From Mycobacteriales bacterium (GTDB lineage: Bacteria; Actinomycetota; Actinomycetes; Mycobacteriales; CADCTP01): a DNA stretch of 36,889 nucleotides. Below the pieces are notes generated by a model that saw nothing but the letters and a program-made list of their open reading frames with translations, made no database searches and was not told where the DNA came from. The stretch covers positions 1 through 36,889 of the forward strand of contig DASYKU010000131.1 of assembly GCA_035995165.1 (NCBI GenBank), in the 5' to 3' direction. A program made the translations under genes and the position numbers. Shown here in pieces: positions 24,063-31,021 of this stretch; positions within the stretch are counted from its first letter, which is position 1, and every line of letters begins with the position of its first letter.

Positions 24063-25403
24063 GTGGACCCCATGACGACTTCTCGCCGGACCTTCCTCAA
24101 GTTCGCGGTCGGTGTGCCCCTCACGGGCGCCGCACTCGCGGCCTGTGGCAGCTCCGGACCCAGCTCGGCCGGTAGCGGCGGCGGCAGCACCGGAAGCGGT
24201 GCCAGCTACTGGTACCTGTCCGGGCCGCCCGGCGAGAAGATCCGGACCGACACGGTCAACCGGTTCAACTCGGCCAACCCGAACACGAAGATCAAGGGCA
24301 CGACGTTCCAGAACGACGCGTACAAGACCAAGATCAAGACGGCCATCGGCGCCGGCCAGTCCCCCACGATCATCTGGGGCTGGGGCGGCGGCGGCCTGCG
24401 CAGCTACGTGCAGGCCAACCAGGTCGAGGACCTCACGTCCTGGTTCGGCCAGAACGCGGCGGTCAAGAACCGGCTGTTCCCGTCCTCGTTCGGCGCGGCC
24501 ACGGTCGACGGCAAGATCTACGCGATGCCGGCCGAGACGGTCCAGCCGATCGTCCTCTACTACAACAAGAAGCTCTTCGACCAGATCGGCGCCCAGCCCC
24601 CGCAGACGTACGGCGACATCCTGGACCTGGTGCCGAAGTTCAACGCCAAGGGCATCGCGCCGTTCTCGCTCGGCGGTCAGTCCCGGTGGACGAACATGAT
24701 GTGGCTGGAGTTCTTCTACCTGCGGCTCGGCGGCAGCGAACTGTTCCAGCGCGTCATGACGGAGAAGGGCGCCTGGTCCGACCCGGTGTCGCTCAAGGGC
24801 CTGCAGATGACCCAGGACCTGGTCAAGGCCAACGGCTTCGTCAAGGGCTTCTCGTCCATCACCGCGGACTCCAACGCCGACCAGGCGCTGCTCTACCGCG
24901 GCAAGGCCGCGATGATGCTGCACGGCTCCTGGTCGTACGGGATCCAGGTCAGCAACGGCGGCAAGTTCGTTCCCGACGGCGATCTGGGCTGGATGAACTT
25001 CCCGTCGGTCGACGGCGGCACCGGCGACCCCGCTGACACCGTCGGCAACCCCGGCCAGTACCTGTCGATCTCCTCCAAGGCCACGGCCGCCGAGAAGGAG
25101 ACCGCGAAGAACTTCTTCAAGACCGCGGTGCTCTCCCCCGAAGAGAACAAGGAGTGGATCGACACCGGCCAGGTGCCGATCTCGACCGGGACCGAGAGCC
25201 AGCTCAACGCGTCCAAGGACAAGGACTTCCTGAACTTCGTCTACGGCATCGCCAGCAAGGCGAAGAACTTCGGGCAGTCCTGGGACCAGGCGCTCGACCC
25301 GACCGCGGCCGAGACGCTGCTGGACAACATCTCCAAGCTCTTCCAGCTCTCGATCTCGCCGCAGCAGTTCGCCGACAACATGAACAAGGTCATCGGCCAG
25401 TGA
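24063..25403 (+). CDS. Sugar ABC transporter substrate-binding lipoprotein (CUT1 family)
   Basis: The 446-residue protein has a twin-arginine motif (SRRTFLK) and a lipobox LAAC, so it is an exported lipoprotein, possibly by the Tat route. A Ser/Gly linker follows the Cys. The rest is a bacterial extracellular solute-binding protein of the maltose/cellobiose type (DGKIYAMPAETVQPIVLYYNK is characteristic). GTG 24063 has GGAG 8 nt upstream; ATG 24072 is an alternative. It captures an oligosaccharide, probably a beta-glucoside given the GH1/GH3 neighbours, for the two permeases that follow. It is the first gene of an operon with a clear promoter and operator. Confidence 0.92.
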   Translation: MDPMTTSRRTFLKFAVGVPLTGAALAACGSSGPSSAGSGGGSTGSGASYWYLSGPPGEKIRTDTVNRFNSANPNTKIKGTTFQNDAYKTKIKTAIGAGQSPTIIWGWGGGGLRSYVQANQVEDLTSWFGQNAAVKNRLFPSSFGAATVDGKIYAMPAETVQPIVLYYNKKLFDQIGAQPPQTYGDILDLVPKFNAKGIAPFSLGGQSRWTNMMWLEFFYLRLGGSELFQRVMTEKGAWSDPVSLKGLQMTQDLVKANGFVKGFSSITADSNADQALLYRGKAAMMLHGSWSYGIQVSNGGKFVPDGDLGWMNFPSVDGGTGDPADTVGNPGQYLSISSKATAAEKETAKNFFKTAVLSPEENKEWIDTGQVPISTGTESQLNASKDKDFLNFVYGIASKAKNFGQSWDQALDPTAAETLLDNISKLFQLSISPQQFADNMNKVIGQ

Positions 25404-26341
25404 CGGCACTCGCTCCGGTCGCCGCGCAGGCAACGACAACTGTTCCCACGCGCGGCGACCGGAGCGGGTCGCGCGGTGCGAACGGGTCGGTCGCCTGGAT
25501 GGTGCTGCCGGCCCTGCTGATCTTCCTCGCGTTCGGGGTCATCCCGCTGCTCGGCGCGCTCGGCCTGAGCTTCACCACCTGGGACGGGATCGGCGCGATC
25601 CACCCGTCCGGCCTCACCAGCTGGAGGGCCACCCTCACCGACCCCGGCCTGCCGCACGCGCTCTATGTCACCTTCCTGATCATGGCGTTGTCCTGGGCGT
25701 TCCAGACGCCGATGAGCCTGCTGCTCGGGGTGTTCCTGGCCGGCCGGCAGCGCTACCGGGCCGTGCTGGCGGTGGTGTACTTCGTGCCGCTGCTGCTGAG
25801 CTCGGCCGCCATCGCGATCACGTACAAGGCCCTGCTGGACCCCAACTTCGGGCTCAGCGCCGGGCTCGGCGTCGGCTTCCTGGCCCAGGACTGGCTCGGC
25901 CGGGGCCGGCTCGCCGTCGGCGTCGTGATCTTCATCGTGTCCTGGCAGTACATCCCCTTCCACTCGCTGATCTACCAAGCGGGCGTCCGGCAGATCCCGG
26001 TCTCCATGTACGAGGCGGCCCAGCTGGACGGGGCCGGCCGGGTCCGGCAGTTCTTCAGCATCACCCTGCCGCAGCTGAAGTACACGATCATCACGTCCTC
26101 GACGCTGATGGTCGTGGGATCGCTGACCTTCTTCGACCTGATCTGGGTGCTGACCGCCGGCGGCCCGGCCGACGCGACCCGGGTGCTGGCGGTGCAGATG
26201 TACATCAAGGGCTTCCAGGGCAACCAGATGGGGCCGGCCAGCGCCATCGCGGTGATCCTGGTGTTCGTCGGGCTGGGCCTGGCGCTGCTGCTGCGCCGCC
26301 TCGGCGGCGACGCCCGCGAGAGCCAGACGGAAGGAGCCTGA
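25400..26341 (+). CDS. Sugar ABC transporter permease, MalF-type
   Basis: The 313-residue protein has a short hydrophilic N-terminus, then about six membrane segments. The EAA loop, contact point for the ATPase, reads YEAAQLDGAGRVRQFFSITLPQLK. GTG 25400 overlaps the stop of the binding-protein gene (GTGA). It forms a channel with the next permease. No ATPase gene is present in the operon. Confidence 0.92.
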   Translation: MTALAPVAAQATTTVPTRGDRSGSRGANGSVAWMVLPALLIFLAFGVIPLLGALGLSFTTWDGIGAIHPSGLTSWRATLTDPGLPHALYVTFLIMALSWAFQTPMSLLLGVFLAGRQRYRAVLAVVYFVPLLLSSAAIAITYKALLDPNFGLSAGLGVGFLAQDWLGRGRLAVGVVIFIVSWQYIPFHSLIYQAGVRQIPVSMYEAAQLDGAGRVRQFFSITLPQLKYTIITSSTLMVVGSLTFFDLIWVLTAGGPADATRVLAVQMYIKGFQGNQMGPASAIAVILVFVGLGLALLLRRLGGDARESQTEGA

Positions 26342-26342
26342 G

Positions 26343-27236
26343 GTGGCGACCACGCTCACGCCCGACACCGACCAGGCGGGCGAGGCGCCGGGCCGGTCCC
26401 ACTCCGGCCGGTCCCAGAGCCCGCGGCACTGGAACTGGCCGGGCGGACTGGCCGGCTGGATCTGGCTGGGGATCGTGATCATCCCGATCTACTGGATCAT
26501 CATCACCAGCTTCAAGACCTCGGCCAACTACTTCTCGGCCAACCCGCTGAAGCCGCCGACGGACCTGACCTTCGAGAACTACAAGCTGGTCATCCAGGAA
26601 CACTTCATCCGCTACTTCTTCAACAGCCTCGTCGTGACGCTCGGCGCGGTGGTGCCGGCGGTGCTGGTCTCCTTCATGGCGGCGTACGCGATCGTGCGGG
26701 GGCGCGGCCGGTTCCTGTGGTCGACCAACGCGCTGTTCCTGGCCGGGCTGGCGATCCCGCTGCAGGCGACGATCATCCCGATCTACCTGATCATCATCCG
26801 GCTGAAGCTGTACGACAGCCTGCTCGCGATCATCCTGCCGTCGATCGCGTTCGCGATCCCGCTGTCGGTGCTGGTGCTCACGAACTTCATCCGGGACGTG
26901 CCGAACGAGCTGTTCGAGTCGATGCGGGTGGACGGCGCCAGCGAGTGGGGAACGCTGTGGCACCTGGCCTTCCCGCTGTCGCGGCCGGCCCTGGTCACCG
27001 TCACCATCTACAACGGACTGATCATCTGGAACGGGTTCCTGCTGCCGCTGGTGCTGACCCAGAGCCCGGAGCGGCGGACCCTGCCGCTGGCGCTGTCCGC
27101 GTTCCAGGGGCAATACACGGTCAACGTGCCGGCCGTGCTGGCCTCGGTCGTGCTGACCACGCTGCCGATCCTGGTCCTGTACGTGGTCGGCCGCCGGCAG
27201 CTGCTGTCCGGGCTGACCGCGGGCTTCGGCAAGTAA
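26343..27236 (+). CDS. Sugar ABC transporter permease, MalG-type
   Basis: The 297-residue protein has about six membrane segments and the EAA loop FESMRVDGASEWGTLWHLAFPLSRPAL. GTG 26343 is directly after the previous stop (1-bp gap). It is the second channel subunit of the importer. CUT1 importers in actinobacteria often borrow a shared ATPase (MsiK) encoded elsewhere, which would explain the lack of one here. Confidence 0.92.
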   Translation: MATTLTPDTDQAGEAPGRSHSGRSQSPRHWNWPGGLAGWIWLGIVIIPIYWIIITSFKTSANYFSANPLKPPTDLTFENYKLVIQEHFIRYFFNSLVVTLGAVVPAVLVSFMAAYAIVRGRGRFLWSTNALFLAGLAIPLQATIIPIYLIIIRLKLYDSLLAIILPSIAFAIPLSVLVLTNFIRDVPNELFESMRVDGASEWGTLWHLAFPLSRPALVTVTIYNGLIIWNGFLLPLVLTQSPERRTLPLALSAFQGQYTVNVPAVLASVVLTTLPILVLYVVGRRQLLSGLTAGFGK

Positions 27237-27238
27237 GC

Positions 27239-29350
27239 GTGTCGTCTCCCGACAGCGCGGCGCCCGGCCCGGCCGCTTTCGACGACGCCGTCACCGCGGT
27301 CCGGGCCGGGGCCGATCCCGGTGTCGTCGCCGCGGCGCTGGTGGCGGAGCTGACGACGGCCGAGCGGCTCGGCCTGCTCGACGGGGACGAGCCGTTCTGG
27401 ACCGGGATGCCGGACATGATGGGCCGGGGCTACAACCTCGAGCCGATCGTGGCCGGCGCCGTACCCCGGCTCGGCATCCCCGGGATCCGGTTCAGCGACG
27501 GGCCCCGGGGCGCGGTGATCGGGCGGTCCACCGCGTTCCCGGTGCCGATGGCCCGCGGCGCGACGTGGGACCCCGCGCTCGAGGAGCGCGTCGGGGAGGC
27601 CATCGGGGCCGAGATCCGGGCCCAGGGCGGGAACCTGTTCGCCGGCGTCTGCATCAACCTGCTCCGCCACCCCGCCTGGGGCCGGGCCCAGGAGACGTAC
27701 GGCGAGGAGACGGTGCTGCTCGGCGCGATGGGCGCGGCGCTGGCCCGGGGCGCGCAGCAGCACGTGCTGGCCTGCGTGAAGCACTACGCCGCCAACAGCA
27801 TGGAGAACGCGCGCTTCCGCGTCGACGTGACGATGGACGAGCGCGCGCTGCACGAGGTCTACCTGCCGCACTTCCGGGCCGTGGTCGAGGCCGGCGTCGG
27901 TGCGGTGATGAGCGCGTACAACTCGGTGAACGGGCAGTGGTGCGGGCAGAACCCGGTGCTGCTGACGGAGATCCTGCGCGGCGAGTGGGGCTTCGACGGG
28001 TTCGTCATGTCCGACTTCATCTGGGGGCTGCGCGACCCGGTCGGCTCGGTCGCGGCCGGGCTGGACCTGGAGATGCCGTTCGCGCAGCAGCGGGCGCAGG
28101 CCCTGCCGGGGGCGCTGGCCGACGGGTCGCTCGATCCCCTCGACGTCGACCGGGCCGCGGTCCGGATCCTGCGGGCCCAGCTCGCGTTCTCAGCCGGACG
28201 GTCCACTGTGGACCCGTCGCCGTCCGTCGTGGCCGGGCCGTCGCACCGGGCGCTGGCCCGGGACGTCGCGGCGCGCTCGATGGTGCTGCTGCGCAACGAG
28301 TCCGGGCTGCTGCCGCTGTCCCCGGCGACGTTGACCCGGGTGGCCGTGGTCGGGCGGCTGGCCGACGTCGCGAACACCGGCGACCACGGCTCGTCCGACG
28401 TCCGGGCGCCGTCGGTGGTGACGCCGCTGGCCGGGCTGCGGGCCGCGCTTCCGGGCGTCGAACTGACCACCGACCCGGCCGGCGCGGACGCGGCGATCGT
28501 CGTCGTCGGCTACACCGCCGCCGACGAGGGCGAGTACGTCGGATCCTTCGACCCGGCGCTGGCCGCGCTCTACCCGCCCGCCGACGACCCGTCCGCGCTC
28601 GCCGAGCTGGCCAAGGTCTGGGACGACGGCCCGCAGTCGGTCGGCGGCGACCGGGGCTCGCTGCGGCTGCACCCGGCCGACGAGGAGCTCATCCGGGCGA
28701 CCGCGGCGGCCAACCCGCGCACGGTCGTCGTCATCATGGCCGGCGCCGCGGTGGTGACCTCGCCGTGGGAGTCGGCGGTGCCGGCGATCCTGCTGGCCTG
28801 GTATCCCGGCATGGAGGGCGGCGCGGCGCTGGCCGACGTGCTGCTCGGGGACCGCTCCCCCGGCGGCCGGCTGCCGTTCGCGGTGCCGGTGGACGAGGCC
28901 GACCTGGTGCCGTTCGACCCGGAGGCGACCGCGGTCACGTACGACCGGTGGCACGGGCAGCGGAAGCTGGACCGCGACAAGGTGGCGGCGGCGTACCCGC
29001 TCGGGTTCGGGCTGTCGTACACGACGTTCCGGCTCTCCGACGCGGTTCTGTCGGTGGGCACCGCGGGGATCGAGGTCCGCGCGGTGATCGAGAACACCGG
29101 CACCCGTCCGGGCGGGCAGGTCGTCCAGGTCTACGCGCGGACGCCCGAGGGCGACCGGTTCCTGGCCGGCTTCACCCGCGCCGACCTCGCCCCGGGCGAG
29201 CGCGTCCCCGTCCGCGTCGAGATCCCGCTCCGCGTCCTCGCCACCCGCCGCGACGGCGCCTGGACCCCACCCACCGGCCACTACGACCTCGACGTCGCCA
29301 CCCACGCGGCCGACCCAGCCGCCCTCCCCCTCCCCCTGGACCTCCCGTAA
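27239..29350 (+). CDS. Glycoside hydrolase family 3 beta-glucosidase, second copy
   Basis: The 703-residue protein starts at GTG 27239, 2 bp after the permease stop. The barrel domain contains KHYAANSMENARF and nucleophile Asp259 in GFVMSDFIWG. Then come the C-terminal (alpha/beta) domain (PAILLAWYPGMEGGAALADVLLGD, SPGGRLPF) and a fibronectin-III-like domain (IENTGTRPGGQVVQVYAR). It has no signal peptide. The sequence is clearly different from the GH3 on the other strand, so the two enzymes are not a recent duplication and may split different linkages. Co-transcription with the importer points to hydrolysis of the imported sugar. The stop is TAA in the GTAA junction with the kinase gene. Confidence 0.92.
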   Translation: MSSPDSAAPGPAAFDDAVTAVRAGADPGVVAAALVAELTTAERLGLLDGDEPFWTGMPDMMGRGYNLEPIVAGAVPRLGIPGIRFSDGPRGAVIGRSTAFPVPMARGATWDPALEERVGEAIGAEIRAQGGNLFAGVCINLLRHPAWGRAQETYGEETVLLGAMGAALARGAQQHVLACVKHYAANSMENARFRVDVTMDERALHEVYLPHFRAVVEAGVGAVMSAYNSVNGQWCGQNPVLLTEILRGEWGFDGFVMSDFIWGLRDPVGSVAAGLDLEMPFAQQRAQALPGALADGSLDPLDVDRAAVRILRAQLAFSAGRSTVDPSPSVVAGPSHRALARDVAARSMVLLRNESGLLPLSPATLTRVAVVGRLADVANTGDHGSSDVRAPSVVTPLAGLRAALPGVELTTDPAGADAAIVVVGYTAADEGEYVGSFDPALAALYPPADDPSALAELAKVWDDGPQSVGGDRGSLRLHPADEELIRATAAANPRTVVVIMAGAAVVTSPWESAVPAILLAWYPGMEGGAALADVLLGDRSPGGRLPFAVPVDEADLVPFDPEATAVTYDRWHGQRKLDRDKVAAAYPLGFGLSYTTFRLSDAVLSVGTAGIEVRAVIENTGTRPGGQVVQVYARTPEGDRFLAGFTRADLAPGERVPVRVEIPLRVLATRRDGAWTPPTGHYDLDVATHAADPAALPLPLDLP

Positions 29351-30312
29351 CTCAGCCCTGGCTCGACCATCTCGTCCGGGCCGGCTTTCCGGGCGCGGCC
29401 CCGCTCGGGGCCGGGATGGAGGGGGCGGTCTACCGGCTCGGGGACGGGACGGTGGCCAAGGTGTGGCGGCGGCGGACGCCGGCCGAACTGCTGCTCTGGC
29501 AGGCGTACTACACCGACGTGGCCGCGGCCGGCCTGCCGTTCGCGACCCCGGAGATCCTGCGGGTGGACGAGGTCGACGGGACCGCGGTGACGATCGAGCG
29601 CGAGCTGCCGGGGCGCCCGCTGGACGAGTGGACGGCTTGGCCGGGCGGTCCCGACGCGGGCGCCGGGTCGGAGGACTCGGCCCGGGACCGGGACCGGCCC
29701 GACGCGGACGACGGCGTGCTCGGGATCCTGCGGGCGCTCGCGGGCGTGCCCGGGACGGCGGCGATGCGGGCGTTGCCGGTGCTGGACGAGGACCGGCCGT
29801 TCCGGCGGGACGGCGAGGACTTCCCGGCGGCGCTGGCCGGACTGCTGGCCCGCCGGACGGCCCGGTCCGGCGCGCTGCTGCGGGCGCACGTCCCCGACTT
29901 CGACCGCCGGTACGCCGCCGTCGCCGACCGCCTGGCCGCGCTCGACCCCGGCCCGGACACGCTCGTGCACGGCGACCTGGTCGCGCCGAACATCCATGTC
30001 GACGACACCGGCCGGCCGGTCGCGGTGCTCGACTTCGGCTTCCTCAGCACGGCCGGGGACCCGCGATTCGAGGCCGGGGTCACCGCCGCGATCCTCGACA
30101 TGTACGGCCCGGACGCCGCCGCGGCCACCGAGACCCGCACCGACCGGTACGCCGCCCGGCTCGGCCACCCGGCGGAGGTCCTGCGGCTCTACCGGGCCGC
30201 GTACGGGATCGCCACCGCCGACGTGTTCAGCGCCGACGGCAGCGACGGCCACTTCGCCTGGTGCGTAAGGCGTCTCACGTGCCCCGAGGTCACCGCGGCG
30301 CTGGGTCTGTGA
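29347..30312 (+). CDS. Aminoglycoside-phosphotransferase-family kinase with an abnormal (GTA) start codon
   Basis: The product would be 321 residues if it begins at GTA 29347 (xTQPWLDHLVRAGFPGAAPLGAGMEGAVYRLG). Catalytic motifs are intact: Lys in TVAKVWRR, HGDLVAPN (Asp210) and LDFGF (Asp229). The APH family phosphorylates antibiotics but also sugars and other small molecules. As the last gene of a glucoside operon it may act on a released product; that is inference. The frame has no ATG, GTG, TTG or CTG near the expected start. The first normal start is ATG 29415, which would remove most of the first strand and glycine loop. The GH3 stop overlaps as GTAA where GTGA would be expected, suggesting a G-to-A change. 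The 3' end overlaps the next, convergent gene by 23 bp. Confidence 0.75.
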   Translation, partial: VTQPWLDHLVRAGFPGAAPLGAGMEGAVYRLGDGTVAKVWRRRTPAELLLWQAYYTDVAAAGLPFATPEILRVDEVDGTAVTIERELPGRPLDEWTAWPGGPDAGAGSEDSARDRDRPDADDGVLGILRALAGVPGTAAMRALPVLDEDRPFRRDGEDFPAALAGLLARRTARSGALLRAHVPDFDRRYAAVADRLAALDPGPDTLVHGDLVAPNIHVDDTGRPVAVLDFGFLSTAGDPRFEAGVTAAILDMYGPDAAAATETRTDRYAARLGHPAEVLRLYRAAYGIATADVFSADGSDGHFAWCVRRLTCPEVTAALGL

Positions 30313-31021
30313 CGCGGCCGGCCTGCCAGTCCTCCTGGTTGCCGACCTCGTCGACGTCGACGCCGAGCGCGCGCAGCTGCGGCTTCTCCCGCAGGCTGCG
30401 CTTGAGCTCGGCGAAACCCGCGAACCCGGCCAGCCCGACGACGTGGTCCCACAACCGCAGCGCGTCCTCGTCCGAGGGCAGCCGGCTGATCACCGGCCCG
30501 AAGAACGCCACCCCGTGCGGCGGCTCGACGTGGATGATCGGCGTCCCGACGTCCCGCCCGGTCAGCCCGAGCGCCTCCTCGCCCTCGGCCCGGATGACCG
30601 GGTCGAGCGAGGGGTCCTCCAGCGCGTCCGCCAGCGTGGCCGGCAGCCCCGCCGAATCCAGGATCGGCGCGACGAACTCCCGGGTCCCGCGGCGGGCCCG
30701 GGTGGGCATGTCGTCGGCCGAGCCGGCGGCGTCGAAGATCGCCGCCCCGAACGCCGCGTACAGGTCGCCGACGGCCGGACGGCCGAGCGTCTCCCGGGTC
30801 CGCGCGGCCACCCGCAGCAGCCGCAGCCCCGCGGTGTGCCCGCCCTCGTAGCCGGCCGGGAAGTGGGTGGCGTAGTCGAGATGCTCGTTGATCATCCGCA
30901 GCGAGATGAACCGCCAGTCGACGGTGTAGTCCCGCTGCGCCACGACCCGGCGGACCCACTTGCTGGTCATCCACGCGAACGGGCAGGTCGGGTCGAAGTA
31001 GAAGTGGAGGTCGGCGCTCAT
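30290..31021 (-). CDS. DsbA-family protein, mycothiol-dependent nitroreductase-like
   Basis: The 243-residue protein starts at ATG 31021, overlapping the preceding stop (ATGA). It is a thioredoxin-fold DsbA-like protein with HFYFDPTCPFAWMTSKW at the N-terminus, DVGTPIIHV, and VAFFGPVISRLP near the C-terminus. This pattern follows mycobacterial Rv2466c, a mycothiol-dependent reductase. The active site is CPFA (Cys13, Ala16) rather than CPWC, so only one redox cysteine remains. That suggests a monothiol mechanism with mycothiol, or a different role. It has no signal peptide. It is probably co-transcribed with the dienelactone hydrolase. Confidence 0.85.
   Translation of the reverse strand: MSADLHFYFDPTCPFAWMTSKWVRRVVAQRDYTVDWRFISLRMINEHLDYATHFPAGYEGGHTAGLRLLRVAARTRETLGRPAVGDLYAAFGAAIFDAAGSADDMPTRARRGTREFVAPILDSAGLPATLADALEDPSLDPVIRAEGEEALGLTGRDVGTPIIHVEPPHGVAFFGPVISRLPSDEDALRLWDHVVGLAGFAGFAELKRSLREKPQLRALGVDVDEVGNQEDWQAGRVTDPAPR

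Follow-up and report, generated by a model that had tools for sequence, protein, structure and literature searches.

The window (the whole 36,889-nucleotide stretch of Mycobacteriales bacterium contig DASYKU010000131.1 that was analysed) carries a putative plus-strand operon consisting of a solute-binding protein, two ABC permeases, a glycoside hydrolase family 3 (GH3) enzyme and an APH-family kinase (Table 1). The GH3 enzyme matched three profiles, PF00933 (E = 4.9e-38), PF01915 (E = 2.4e-47) and PF14310 (E = 5.3e-08). The solute-binding protein and the first permease overlap by GTGA at 25400-25403. The second permease and the GH3 gene (region 27233-27241) meet at a GTAA (27233-27236), as do the GH3 gene and the kinase. 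No start was lost at the first of these junctions, as the GTG of the GH3 gene lies two codons past it, and the pair of GTAA junctions within one operon may be a coincidence. On the minus strand, an Rv2466c-like mycothiol-dependent nitroreductase (PF22234, E = 6.3e-40; window 30290-31000) opposes the kinase tail to tail, with its stop end (30290) over the final kinase codons.

Table 1 Features of the putative operon and of the GH3-kinase junction (positions in the window)
Feature	Position	Strand	Evidence
Sugar ABC transporter solute-binding protein, first in putative operon	24063..25403	+	PF01547 E = 2.3e-34
ABC permease	25400..26341	+	PF00528 E = 1.3e-14 on 25403-26338
Second ABC permease, TAA stop	26343..27236	+	PF00528 E = 4.5e-18
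GH3 enzyme, GTG start 27239, TAA stop 29348-29350	27239..29350	+	
GTAA junction: GTA = kinase codon 1, TAA = GH3 stop	29347..29350	+	direct reading
APH-family kinase frame, 321 codons, without usual start	29347..30312	+	PF01636 E = 2.5e-15
ATG, first usual in-frame start downstream, Met of G-x-G-M-E-G nucleotide-loop motif	29416..29418	+	

When the junction was read directly, the GH3 frame ended in CTG GAC CTC CCG TAA and the kinase frame began with GTA ACT CAG CCC TGG CTC GAC. The four bases GTAA are common to the GH3 stop and the first kinase codon, so that the placing of the TAA stop within these same bases, made in an earlier note on this DNA, was confirmed. The geometry and the operon context are those of the four-base overlapping, translationally coupled pairs (ATGA/GTGA; PMC6728339). 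Unlike in such pairs, however, the first codon of the second gene is not a usual start (ATG, GTG or TTG) but GTA. In the kinase frame, the 300 bases upstream of the GTA contain no ATG, GTG or TTG and only one CTG (29260), and the closest upstream in-frame GTG is located approximately 133 codons away, within the GH3 gene. The earliest usual start downstream is the ATG at 29416, one base from the position 29415 given in the earlier note. The same note had described a kinase with GTA as its first codon and no usual start nearby, and this description holds: none occurs from more than 100 codons upstream until the ATG. GTA is thus the sole start candidate at the expected place. Because it stands in place of a usual start codon, the kinase is probably produced poorly or not at all, unless this one base is a sequencing error.

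The kinase is a member of the APH phosphotransferase family (PF01636, 57.3 bits; curated cut-off 23.2), and its alignment contains HGDLVAPN and LDFGF, corresponding to the HGD...N and D-F/W-G motifs that we take to be catalytic in this family. It did not reach the cut-off of the NCBIfam model for APH(3') aminoglycoside phosphotransferases (NF033068; 11.8 bits vs 205). In 42 alignment columns, one residue is shared by at least 90 % of the other rows, and the window kinase keeps it in all 42. The mostly empty row of L035, truncated where an internal stop occurs (22 of 47), stayed in the alignment and is to be disregarded. No decay of the protein is visible at the level of its sequence, which suggests that any loss is recent or incomplete; an intact sequence could also reflect expression sufficient for selection. 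Neither a second kinase copy in the same genome (E ≤ 0.001) nor a PDB sequence match (E ≤ 0.01) was found, and no relatives were found among viral contigs. In the same-genus genome G001, neither the kinase (E ≤ 1e-20) nor the GH3 enzyme (E ≤ 1e-150) had a match.

Gene junctions were surveyed in 981 kb of this genome, sampled as 56 stretches that include the window, using a caller based on a GC-by-codon-position heuristic, not a trained predictor. Among 737 gene ends, TAA was the rare stop (26, vs 558 TGA and 153 TAG). At 157 junctions, a coding-like frame continued through the base preceding the stop, and the four bases were GTGA (70), ATGA (40), CTGA (31), TTGA (7), GTAG (4), CTAG (3) or GTAA (2), both GTAA junctions being those of the kinase operon. 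A usual start was present right at the overlap in 117 of the 157. One CTGA junction (L079, offset 17335) appeared to have a CTG start; this candidate was rejected as a GTG is located one codon upstream, and the junction looks ordinary.

In six of the 157 junctions, including that of the kinase, a usual start was missing within 20 codons on either side of the overlap. It should be mentioned that the absence of a start proves little by itself, because frames before stops are often open at this G+C. When the other five were inspected by eye, four resembled genes starting at a later ATG or GTG and one appeared non-coding. Among the six, homology before the first usual start was demonstrated for the kinase alone, the one for which it was searched; its relatives are alignable from residue 2. 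This homology sets it apart from the other start-less junctions, and we concluded that its start-less junction is more than chance.

A total of 47 kinase loci were compared: the window (L001), 24 genome-contig loci (L002-L025), 15 from the order search (L026-L040) and seven from the class search (L111-L117). The N-terminus was covered in 42 of the 47, window included; L111, L022, L023 and L024 fell short of it, and L025 was without a match at 1e-5. The remaining 41 relative loci represent 40 distinct records, as L008 and L113 are apparently one. A usual start was observed from q-12 to q+19 of the GTA position in all 41, vs none in the window. Some of the relatives (e.g. L008, L013, L014 and L031) start exactly at the GTA position (q+1). 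The closest relatives (L002, L003 and L026-L029) have their usual start seven codons before it, and at these seven codons the window carries GH3 sequence. In four of these loci (L026, L027, L028 and L029), a TGTACT/TGTAAT hexamer was seen by eye about 6 bases 5' of the kinase ATG, a position compatible with leaderless transcription from a promoter of the gene's own.

The GH3 side of the junction was also compared. Nine GH3 homologues were found at E ≤ 1e-150 among 396 other genomes of the order, and the stop was readable in eight of them (all but L043; seven TGA and one TAG). The nearest homologue (G355, 63 % identical) ends in CTGGACCTGCCGTGA, vs CTGGACCTCCCGTAA in the window. The gene that follows it encodes a GFO/IDH/MocA oxidoreductase (PF01408, E = 6.9e-25) and starts at the GTG of the GTGA at the GH3 end. 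As this GTGA occupies the homologous stop, an ancestral GTGA at the GH3 end appears plausible.

None of the nine GH3 homologue loci contains the kinase. Likewise, no GH3-kinase pair was observed in the 39 relative loci L002-L040 when checked with the GH3 protein. Class-search matches were checked for GH3 only in G403, G597 and G653 through L118-L120, leaving out L111-L117 themselves, and no GH3 gene lay beside the kinase there. Several of the loci examined for the pair carry only about 1.5 kb of flank. By eye, the flanking frames of L003, L004, L007 and L067 showed no recognisable ABC-GH3 operon adjoining the kinase. One initially promising match, G403 (L111/L118), was rejected since its alignment begins only at query residue 78 and no GH3 adjoins it.

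A comparison of relatives at the junction had been suggested in the earlier note, together with a change from GTGA to GTAA as the origin of the missing start. The comparison yielded a usual start in every relative reaching the N-terminus and a GTGA in the nearest GH3 homologue, but the same GH3-kinase pair was absent in those tested. The proposed base change is partly supported by the position of the GTA, where several relatives start, and by the GTGA of G355, while a kinase-bearing GTGA ancestor is not seen in any relative tested. Given this absence, and given that the nearest kin start seven codons earlier, a joining event is an alternative to the point mutation. The kinase start may therefore have gone by a point change or by the joining of the kinase to the GH3 end.

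The signals around the junction were also examined. No SD-like 4-mer (GGAG, GAGG or AGGA) was present at -18 to -4 before the GTA. Such a 4-mer is found in 46 of the 117 NTGA junctions of the sample (vs 13 % background), and its absence is weak evidence as the other 71 also lack one. No sigma-70-like promoter or terminator-like site was found within 29000-30400, and the RNA structure at the junction was no stronger than in shuffles (z 0.21). Nothing thus replaces the start, and weak coupled re-initiation at GUA, or none, is the likeliest outcome of its loss.

Our preferred explanation, to which we assign a probability of roughly 0.58, is a natural loss of the start codon, after which coupled re-initiation at GUA would be weak at best. 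An otherwise intact APH-family kinase directly 3' of the GH3 gene has GTA in the position expected for the coupled GTG of a GTGA overlap. The start would have been lost naturally and recently, either through a change of GTG to GTA or when a joining event removed the original first kinase codons. Lacking a Shine-Dalgarno sequence, the GUA would then only seldom be used for re-initiation by ribosomes finishing the GH3 gene, and the little kinase made would correspond to a near-null allele in which decay is yet to come.

The loss of a start codon is a known kind of event and ordinary in kind. The nearest parallel concerns the GUA initiation-codon mutant of E. coli recJ (Haggerty and Lovett 1997, as cited in PMC6200909 and PMC2268962). 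In the portions of these papers used here, the mutated GUA start is of low efficiency and is called the only demonstrated GUA start (PMC6200909), and the mutant has no SD and is apparently coupled to an upstream ORF (PMC2268962). The kinase shares the GUA in the start position, the missing SD, the apparent coupling to an upstream ORF and, probably, the low efficiency. In contrast to recJ, an experimental mutant of a known gene, the putative GTA start of the kinase lies in a natural genome record. In vitro data excerpted from PMC10158994 describe poor codon-anticodon pairing as badly tolerated by IF3. A second parallel is the ATG-to-ATA start change of rpoS, for which an excerpt of PMC12864459 reports a fall of up to five-fold. 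This is likewise a third-position G-to-A start change and is described there as a knock-down rather than a knock-out; unlike the kinase GUA, it is an AUA and arose in laboratory cultivation.

The start loss is read from one genome record, and an assembly error would look identical. If one base were wrong through sequencing or assembly, the true junction would be an ordinary GTGA and the kinase would be normally coupled to GH3. We consider this unlikely, at about one chance in five, and it fares best among the alternatives: GTGA is the commonest such junction in the sample, the kinase is without decay and the assembly is a draft of 162 contigs, but single-base errors at any given site are rare in ordinary assemblies.

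Less probable is that the GUA start is real and selected, holding the kinase deliberately low and responding to IF3. The model for this is sigR of Streptomyces, which has a GTC start repressed by IF3 according to the part of PMC5472188 consulted. The kinase resembles sigR as an actinobacterial gene with a GTN codon other than GTG at the start position, and its protein is intact. However, sigR in that account combines a strong, long SD (AGGAGGTG) with an unusual start that is conserved (GTC in 32/34 Streptomyces species; PMC5472188). Neither is seen at the kinase, where no SD-like 4-mer is present and all 41 relative loci have ordinary starts. In addition, at the only other GTAA junction of the sample a GTG follows two codons later. 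In its fuller form, with the kinase made by termination-reinitiation at the GH3 stop from a natural, selected, very weak and IF3-controlled GUA, at a level far below GH3, this explanation is slightly more doubtful still.

Translation from the ATG at 29416, giving a 298-residue kinase, is very improbable. This ATG is the first usual start, and the shorter form still matches PF01636 (E = 1.2e-13), but the score falls from 57.3 to 51.8 bits and no SD-like 4-mer precedes the ATG. The codon at this offset is ATG, GTG or TTG in 30 of the 41 relatives and encodes V (GTC), T, S or A in the others. As it lies inside the nucleotide-loop motif, varies to V, T, S or A, and is preceded by a start in all 41 relatives, its role is that of a coding residue, and initiation there is unlikely. 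Re-initiation at this ATG, as offered in the earlier note, would cost the protein its first 23 residues, among them part of the nucleotide loop. Finally, a -1 frameshift near the GH3 end that fuses the kinase to the GH3 enzyme can hardly be entertained: no stop interrupts the kinase frame as far back as 27217 and two five-C runs lie just 5' of the GH3 stop, but long open frames are common at this G+C, the GH3 C-terminus is alignable with homologue L042 up to the last residues and ends where it ends, the local RNA fold is ordinary, and inspection by eye revealed no known slippery heptamer.

Gene callers limited to ATG, GTG and TTG would miss the kinase or shorten it to the nucleotide-loop ATG, and if the base is wrong, the junction is simply an annotation trap. 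If the base is right, the natural loss of the start codon would make this a clear case of a coupled-junction gene whose start codon is gone and whose protein sequence is still intact, and it would test how much product is made at a GUA by a ribosome that has just terminated.
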